A stretch of 38,467 nucleotides of DNA, taken from the NCBI GenBank assembly GCA_031258115.1, contig JAIRNJ010000006.1:1-38467 (forward strand), given 5' to 3'. Positions 13,273 through 14,700 of the stretch are shown one piece after another (position 1 is the first letter of the stretch; every line of letters starts with the position of its first letter). The notes beneath the pieces are model-generated. The model was not told the DNA's origin, searched no databases, and saw only the letters and a list, made by a program, of their open reading frames with translations. Source of the DNA: Treponema sp. Lineage in GTDB: Bacteria > Spirochaetota > Spirochaetia > Treponematales > Breznakiellaceae. Position numbers and translations under genes: made by a program.

Positions 13273-14148
13273 TCATGCTACATAGGGCTCAAGAAAATAC
13301 TGTCTGGAGGGATGCTGAAGGCGTTTGAGAGCCTTCTTTTCAATCTGCCTGATCCGTTCCTTGGTAAGATTGAAGTGGTCTCCAATCTCCTTGAGAGACA
13401 TGGGTGTGCAGGAATCAAGCCCGTAACGGAAACGGATAATGTCCGCTTCTGTTTTGCTTAAAGTACCCAGCAGATCTCTAATATCGTCCTTAAGAGCCTG
13501 CTTCATGGTTTTGGCATCGGGGGCCTCGTACTTATCCGCCTGGATGAATTCTTCCAGCGTGGAGGAATCGCTGTTGTAGCTGACGGGATTTTCCAGGGAA
13601 ACCATGTCCCGGCTGATGTTTATCAGCTCGGTTACCGTACTTTTGTCCATGTTGAGCATCCGGGCGATTTCCTTTATCTCCGTTTCACTCGAATGGCATT
13701 CCTGAACCAGCTTCTGGGCCTTTTCAATCTGAATCAGCTCATTGGCCCGGTTAAGGGGAAGCCGTATCATCCTGGCTTTTTCGCAGATTGCCTTGAGAAT
13801 GGACTGACGAATCCACCACACCGCATAGGAGATGAAGTGGAAACCCTTTGTTACGTCGTAACGGTCAACGGCGCTGATAAGGCCGATGTTTCCTTCGCTG
13901 ATAAGATCGTCAAGGGGAAGTCCCTGTCCCTGATACTTCTTTGCGATATTCACCACAAAGCGCAGATTTGAATTGATCAGCCTGTTCTTTGCTTCCTGGT
14001 TACCCTGAGCCGCCTGACGGGCGGTTTCGTTCTCTTCCTCTCTGGAGAGCAAGGGAATGTTGTTGATTTCGTTGAGATACATGGAAAGAATGTTCTCATC
14101 AGAGTTTTTCATTTCCTGCCGGGTTTTCTTTACTTTGGTCGCGGTCAT
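13273..14148 (-). CDS. Small sigma70-family (group 2) RNA polymerase sigma factor, treponemal sigma43-like
   Basis: 291-residue sigma factor. The start is ATG at 14148, with AGGAGG five bases upstream; the open frame continues further upstream but has no family similarity there. Region 1.2 is at residues 18-48, region 2 at 52-125 with the core-binding LPLDDLISEGNIGL (77-90) and the promoter -10-reading helix SYAVWWIRQSI (107-117). Region 3 is about 130-210, and region 4 about 225-280 with the helix-turn-helix SLKEIGDHFNLTKERIRQIEKK. Region 1.1 is absent, so this is not the housekeeping RpoD but a shorter, group 2 (RpoS/sigma43-like) factor. In T. pallidum the gene next to groES (TP1012) is annotated as sigma-43, from memory. 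It is preceded by a sigma54-type promoter (14181-14199), which suggests that RpoN controls it. It ends 44 bp from the convergent MATE gene. Confidence 0.9.
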   Translation of the reverse strand: MTATKVKKTRQEMKNSDENILSMYLNEINNIPLLSREEENETARQAAQGNQEAKNRLINSNLRFVVNIAKKYQGQGLPLDDLISEGNIGLISAVDRYDVTKGFHFISYAVWWIRQSILKAICEKARMIRLPLNRANELIQIEKAQKLVQECHSSETEIKEIARMLNMDKSTVTELINISRDMVSLENPVSYNSDSSTLEEFIQADKYEAPDAKTMKQALKDDIRDLLGTLSKTEADIIRFRYGLDSCTPMSLKEIGDHFNLTKERIRQIEKKALKRLQHPSRQYFLEPYVA

Positions 14149-14180
14149 TTGAGCCTCCTGATTTGCTTGACACCAATAAT

Positions 14181-14199
14181 CAAGCAAAGACCGTGCCAA
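14181..14199 (-). promoter_or_regulatory. sigma54 (-24/-12) promoter of the small sigma factor gene
   Basis: On the minus strand this reads TTGGCACGGTCTTTGCTTG, an essentially perfect match to the sigma54 consensus TGGCACG-N4-TTGC(A/T). The GG (14197-14196) and GC (14185-14184) doublets are exactly 10 nt apart. The predicted start of transcription is about 14172, giving a leader of some 24 nt that contains the AGGAGG site (14159-14154) of the sigma gene at 14148. Enhancer-binding sites were not identified. Confidence 0.85.
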
Positions 14200-14347
14200 A
14201 ATATTCAGAATGTCGAATTTTACAGAATTTTTGTGTATATTATGATGATTTCTTTCAAAACGGTGAATAATTTGTATGAAACGGCTGAAAAAAACCCTCT
14301 CCGCCTCCCGAAAAAGACTCAGGACAGGAATCCCGGCATAAAAAAAA

Positions 14348-14400
14348 GGACATTTTGACACAAAGCTTCAAAAAGAAGCCATTTTCGTGTCAAAATGTCC
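14348..14400 (-). terminator. Intrinsic terminator of groES
   Basis: Perfect 14-bp arms 14348-14361 and 14387-14400 (GGACATTTTGACAC and its complement) enclose a second small stem (GCTTC 14365-14369 / GAAGC 14375-14379). Read on the minus strand, the stem is followed directly by seven T (14347-14341), so it is a strong intrinsic terminator 28 nt after the groES stop. It separates groES from the sigma-factor transcript downstream. The stem is unusually long for a terminator. Confidence 0.88.
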
Positions 14401-14427
14401 CAAACTGAAACAGAAAGGCGCTATGCC

Positions 14428-14700
14428 TTATTCAATGACACAGATAATGTCCGACATCTTGATAACCAGAAAATCGGCTCCGTCGATCTTGATCTGGGTA
14501 CCCGCATACTTGTCGTACATTACCTTCTGACCCGGTTTAACCGTGATAGGGTCTTTTTCGGTTCCCGGCCCCACTTCCGCTATCGTACCCTGCTGGGTTT
14601 TTTCCTGAGCGGTATCGGGGATGATGATGCCTCCGGCGGTTTTCGCCTCATTTTTCTCAAGTTTGACCAAAACCCGGTCTGCCAAGGGTTTTACTTTCAT
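14428..14700 (-). CDS. groES: Co-chaperonin GroES
   Basis: 90-residue GroES (Hsp10), the lid of the GroEL folding chamber in the cytoplasm. The start is the ATG at 14700 (MKVKPLADRVLVK), chosen because GGAGG lies 7 nt upstream and because family members begin exactly here; the upstream in-frame residues are unrelated. Visible family elements are PLADRVLVKLE, the mobile GroEL-binding loop around KTAGGIIIPDTAQEKTQ, GTIAEVGPG, and the C-terminal VMYDKYAGTQIKIDGADFLVIKMSDI. Length and composition are normal. No groEL follows, so the gene is monocistronic, as I recall for T. pallidum too. It has its own TTGACC-N17-TATATT promoter and a terminator. No CIRCE dyad (TTAGCACTC-N9-GAGTGCTAA) is present upstream. 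Confidence 0.97.
   Translation of the reverse strand: MKVKPLADRVLVKLEKNEAKTAGGIIIPDTAQEKTQQGTIAEVGPGTEKDPITVKPGQKVMYDKYAGTQIKIDGADFLVIKMSDIICVIE

Follow-up and report, generated by a model that had tools for sequence, protein, structure and literature searches.

Organization of the sigma43 locus

The window (the whole 38,467-nt stretch of Treponema sp. DNA that was analyzed) contains, on the minus strand, a sigma factor gene of the sigma43 type, a sigma-54 promoter box directly before it and the groES gene further upstream. The features of this locus, in order of position, are the following:

13273–14148, minus strand: coding sequence of a sigma-70-family (group 2-like) sigma factor, "sigma43"/TP1012 type, 291 aa (translation, Pfam)
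14154–14159, minus strand: Shine-Dalgarno AGGAGG (sequence)
14172, minus strand: predicted transcription start (+1) with a 24-nt leader (from the −12 geometry)
14183–14199, minus strand: sigma-54 (−24/−12) promoter box TTGGCACGGTCTTTGCT, exact consensus, GG at 14197–14196 and GC at 14185–14184
14339–14401, minus strand: long hairpin and T-run after groES (RNA fold −32.3 kcal/mol, z −9.25)
14346–14362, minus strand: proximal enhancer-like dyad TGTGTCAAAATGTCCTT, three mismatches, centre at about −156 from the box, 40 nt from the distal dyad
14386–14402, minus strand: distal enhancer-like dyad TGGGACATTTTGACACG, two mismatches to TGKRTCANNNTGAYMCA, centre at about −196 from the box
14428–14700, minus strand: groES (Cpn10), the gene upstream of sigma43 (Pfam PF00166)

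The sigma43 protein contains regions 1.2, 2, 3 and 4 (PF00140, PF04542, PF04539 and PF04545, all above the Pfam cut-off) but not the long N-terminal domain that RpoD has, an architecture like that of the group 2 sigma factors. None of the NCBIfam equivalog models matched it at cut-off and, by those rules, it is therefore neither RpoD nor a proteobacterial RpoS. Related genomes carry separate RpoD genes. The reading frame stays open 5′ of the ATG as far as a GTG at 14361; the Shine-Dalgarno sequence and a comparison with orthologues support the ATG at 14148 as the start codon.

Direct reading of the minus strand at 14199–14181 gave TTGGCACGGTCTTTGCTTG, in which GG and GC are exactly 10 nt apart, the strict sigma-54 geometry. 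The box matches GG-N10-GC with TGGCAYR-N4-TTGC exactly and lies 34 nt from the ATG. These observations bear out the original prediction, which had described the spacing of the two doublets and a strong AGGAGG before the ATG of a 291-residue protein. It had also placed the transcription start near 14172, the same position as that obtained here. In addition, a sigma-70 promoter may be located ahead of the sigma43 gene.

The consensus TGGCAYRNNNNTTGCW has a single exact match in the window, namely the sigma43 box, and matches with two mismatches occur at chance level. In the whole source genome (2.9 Mb, 92% complete, 326 contigs), 10 exact sites were found compared with one for the reversed pattern, so that about 0.01 exact site is expected per window. 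Most of the genomic exact boxes sit just before open reading frames. Those at L001, L003, L004, L005, L006 and L009 precede genes for an HlyD/CusB-type membrane-fusion protein, a PdxA-like protein, an aldehyde dehydrogenase, a membrane-type protein without assignment, a protein with an LPD13 domain and a small protein of the exported type. Another exact box (L008) falls within a coding sequence, probably by chance.

Conservation of the promoter box in Spirochaetia

Orthologues of sigma43 were collected from named genomes, from 394 genomes of the order (354 with a match) and from 128 genomes of the class Spirochaetia, and their upstream DNA was compared. The 174 loci obtained corresponded to 164 distinct ones once duplicate copies of the same genome had been removed. 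An exact box was present at 126 of these, a box with one mismatch at 34 and a box with two mismatches at three, while one locus had none; 160 of the 164 therefore carry the box with at most one mismatch. Conservation of the motif among treponeme sigma43 promoters, which the original prediction had named as a check, was thus observed. In shuffled upstream regions, an exact box was found in 0.06% and a box with one mismatch in 0.4%. No box was found at 26 RpoD or other sigma loci taken as a control (best matches with 2–4 mismatches). The RpoN promoter of Borrelia rpoS is experimentally established, and its box was recovered by the same script as a positive control. Column counts of the sigma43 boxes revealed that GG, CA, TTGC and the next T/A hardly vary, whereas the spacer and the flanks drift, which is the pattern expected of a sigma-54 site.

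A good box was missing at four sigma43 loci (L230, L250, L271 and L273). At L230, L271 and L273, altered boxes (TGGCCC..., GGGAACAAATATTGCT) were seen, perhaps representing diverged promoters. In the T. denticola-like genome G002 (genus g54), TAGCA replaces TGGCA in the box of sigma43 and in that of the second sigma factor described below, and the sigma43 box of another T. denticola-like genome of this genus, G006, has the same change (L188, L292 and L371 for the two genomes). Recognition by RpoN may have shifted in these two genomes, or the promoters may be weakened.

The T. pallidum gene TP1012 belongs to the same orthologous family and is likewise adjacent to groES. It is one of five sigma genes (PMC8525777, PMC5015957); its protein has been detected (PMC5015957) and its transcript was found at the same level in rabbit infection and in culture (PMC8525777). 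Genome G013, a single contig of 1.14 Mb with a divergent groES that was taken as T. pallidum or its nearest kin, contains the exact sigma43 box TGGCATGATATTTGCT.

Paired palindromes upstream of the box

Word counts in the DNA 5′ of the boxes showed an extreme excess of ATGACACA, TGTGTCAA and ATTTTGAC. The enriched words build the palindrome TG[TG]GTCA-WWW-TGAC[AC]CA (TGTGTCA-N3-TGACACA). This dyad, with no more than two mismatches, was found in 130 of 159 distinct promoters versus 0.6 in shuffles. Pairs of dyads (summed mismatches of six or fewer) were then counted at spacings of 18–74 nt. Pairs 40 or 41 nt apart were present in 123/159 promoters, versus about 0.2 in shuffles (at 40 nt), and none of the other spacings in this range occurred in more than nine promoters. 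The centre of the proximal dyad lies 48–274 nt upstream of the box (median 128). The dyads of the window itself are weaker, with two and three mismatches. By sequence, predicted activator sites are thus located upstream of the sigma-54 promoter.

In its −24/−12 box and palindromic upstream sites for an AAA+ activator with a Fis-type HTH, the arrangement is similar to that of NtrC/NifA-type promoters. It differs from them in the sequence of the palindrome and in the fixed 40-nt pair, and the binding protein here is a candidate. We know of no site that matches this palindrome together with the fixed 40-nt pair, and the paired dyads upstream of the sigma43 boxes are reported here as new.

In the source genome, further paired dyads were found only before two Hsp20 genes, at L010 (contig C269) and L398 (contig C7). 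The sigma-54 box is exact at L010 and has one mismatch at L398, and both have the 40-nt dyad pair. This sharing suggests that the likely output of the system is a stress (protein-damage) response. GroES and IbpA are included in a list of sigma-54-associated chaperones, and sigma genes (COG0568) are among the sigma-54-associated families generally (PMC12316311).

The dyad pair was not found at the sigma43 locus of the T. pallidum-like genome G013, in which it differs from the locus described here; since the box is kept there without the pair, the enhancer is not universal. Another exact box of this genome, L392 TGGCATGGTTTTTGCT (C1:1136989-1137004, minus strand), is located directly before a Dps/TpF1-like gene, and no enhancer dyad was found at it. 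Single dyads were also noted inside rpsA, 5′ of the GAF-type activator gene, and were rejected as sites because their conservation is that of coding sequence.

RpoN and candidate activators

The source genome encodes RpoN (DNA-binding domain, E 1.5e-51) and three full NtrC-family AAA+ activators (each E < 1e-71), so that both components for which the original prediction had suggested searching were found. The first activator (L012) is an AtoC-type response regulator with receiver, AAA+ and Fis HTH domains, encoded beside a histidine kinase; the others are of the NtrX type (L013) and of the GAF type (NifA-like, L014). The rpoN gene was found in 367 of the 394 genomes of the order. As it is near-universal there and absent mainly from incomplete bins, its loss could not be used as a natural experiment.

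In a survey of activators, which covered nine genomes, the AtoC/Rrp2 type was the sole kind present in all genomes checked (8/8). L012 is 54% identical to Borrelia Rrp2 over the full length, and the Rrp2 of T. denticola is a predicted sigma-54 activator (PMC12070737). The protein that binds the dyads is most likely the AtoC/Rrp2-type regulator, although with clear doubt. A possible but less favoured alternative is the same circuit with the GAF-type L014 or the NtrX-type L013 as the binding protein. The T. pallidum-like genome, which keeps the box, has neither the GAF-type activator nor the dyad pair; the Treponema genomes G002 and G133 have this activator and keep the box, G002 with the pair as well; and Borrelia Rrp2 acts on a different sigma lineage. 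However, in G399 (about 95% complete) both the box and the pair are present, and an AtoC-type activator was the only one found.

Relation of the dyads to the probable groES terminator

The hairpin and T-run at 14339–14401, kept in five genomes of the same genus, are probably the intrinsic terminator of groES. In the window, the dyad pair doubles as the stem of this hairpin. This overlap with a strong terminator provides a second possible cause for the conservation of the dyads in this genus, where one element may serve both functions. The dyads could accordingly be a conserved terminator or, as such palindromes are also of a suitable size for other regulators, the site of a repressor or another factor, and not the enhancer of a sigma-54 activator. 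We consider this unlikely in view of the fixed 40-nt spacing and the position 48–274 nt upstream of the box. Moreover, the pair occurs at loci with groES on the same strand, at loci with a divergent groES and at loci where no groES was found within 1.5 kb. It also precedes the two sigma-54-boxed Hsp20 genes, where groES is absent. The groES terminator was rejected as the sole cause of the dyads on these grounds.

A second sigma factor and the relation to Borrelia RpoS

One of the 10 exact sigma-54 boxes of the source genome (G000) precedes the gene of a second group 2-like sigma factor (L007, L312; 282 aa; G000:C128:4038-4936). Among its 39 distinct loci, the box was exact at 25, had one mismatch at 13 and two mismatches at one. 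At 42 loci of this gene, the sigma43-type dyad occurred at the level of shuffled sequences. The second-sigma promoters have their own palindrome instead, TGTAT-N8-ATACA, with GTAT-N8-ATAC present in 23 of 38 (0.1 expected), and an enhancer common to both sigma genes was therefore rejected. At the threshold used, the second sigma factor was not found in G013, where sigma43 is present. Borrelia genomes searched with the sigma43 query returned RpoD and RpoS only.

The Rrp2–RpoN–RpoS cascade of Borrelia burgdorferi is similar to the arrangement described here in that a strict −24/−12 RpoN promoter lies 20–60 nt before a small sigma-70-family gene, and in that an orthologous Rrp2/AtoC-type response regulator is present in the source genome. 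It differs in the lineage of the sigma factor. It also differs in that no dyad pair was found 5′ of Borrelia rpoS, whereas the sigma43 promoters have the conserved 40-nt enhancer-like pair, for which a functional need is predicted. Rrp2 has been reported to activate Borrelia rpoS without an enhancer (Blevins 2009, as cited in PMC11109971).

The tree of these sigma factors has long branches; in a careful tree from which the longest rows were excluded, Borrelia RpoS grouped with the second sigma factor (support 100/99). A clade of Borrelia RpoS and sigma43 was rejected (AU p = 2.8e-5), and with it the identification of sigma43 as Borrelia RpoS. It is thus very improbable that the RpoN–sigma43 link is the Borrelia RpoN–RpoS link by descent, even though both genes have a sigma-54 box near the start and Rrp2 is orthologous to the AtoC-type regulator. 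The RpoN–RpoS-like cascade of the original prediction therefore holds as regulatory logic, a sigma-54 box before a sigma gene, but not by descent.

These comparisons point to two parallel RpoN-to-sigma circuits, of which Borrelia appears to have kept one and T. pallidum the other. On a reading that we favour only slightly, the Spirochaetia ancestrally had two circuits from RpoN to a sigma-70-family factor, each with its own palindromes: one with sigma43 and Hsp20, the other with the RpoS-type factor. Borrelia would have kept only the second and lost its enhancer, and T. pallidum only the first, with loss of its enhancer pair; the Borrelia cascade would then be a remnant of an older system with two branches, and T. 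pallidum would have an RpoN–sigma43 cascade.

Proposed regulatory circuit

The original prediction of a sigma-54 promoter before a sigma43-type gene agrees with the exact box, its conservation throughout the class and the presence of rpoN and NtrC-type activators. With a probability of about 0.86, we propose that the motif is a genuine RpoN promoter within a class-wide unit that ties sigma43 synthesis to an NtrC-family activator. The box, its conservation, rpoN, the activators, the dyad pair and the sharing of the pair with Hsp20 genes are all read from sequence. It is extremely improbable that the box arose by chance or is a disused relic: single motifs are common in general, but this one is conserved across families with a nearly invariant −24 G and TTGC core amid varying flanks and spacer, the RpoD controls were negative, the paired dyads are placed where an enhancer should be, and a relic would implausibly have to persist in every one of these genomes.

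In the proposed RpoN circuit, a signal would act through a histidine kinase on the activator, most likely of the AtoC/Rrp2 type. The activator would bind the two palindromes 40 nt apart, about 100–230 nt upstream, loop to the RNA polymerase–sigma54 complex at the −24/−12 box and open the promoter. Sigma43 transcribed from the box would then direct a second set of promoters; the Hsp20 genes would be parallel direct targets, with a wider set reached via sigma43. In flagellar hierarchies from sigma-54 to fliA (sigma28), for example in Vibrio, RpoN also transcribes a sigma gene in a two-tier system. Unlike in those hierarchies, the second tier here would be a group 2-like sigma factor with a link to Hsp20 and not FliA.

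The open-access literature searched treats the Borrelia cascade in detail, but no link between RpoN and treponemal sigma43 was found in it, although older predictions in subscription journals are possible. Treponema is absent from the text of a survey of sigma-54 regulons (PMC3162934). Judging from the open literature searched, neither the role of RpoN in treponemes nor the way in which their sigma43 is regulated appears to have been studied. The promoter and enhancer pair offer a concrete circuit with a predicted start, predicted binding sites and first targets (sigma43 and Hsp20). The RpoN–RpoS pathway of Borrelia, considered unusual, would become a single branch within a design common to the class. 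An RpoN-to-sigma43 cascade is predicted in T. pallidum, a species with few known regulators.
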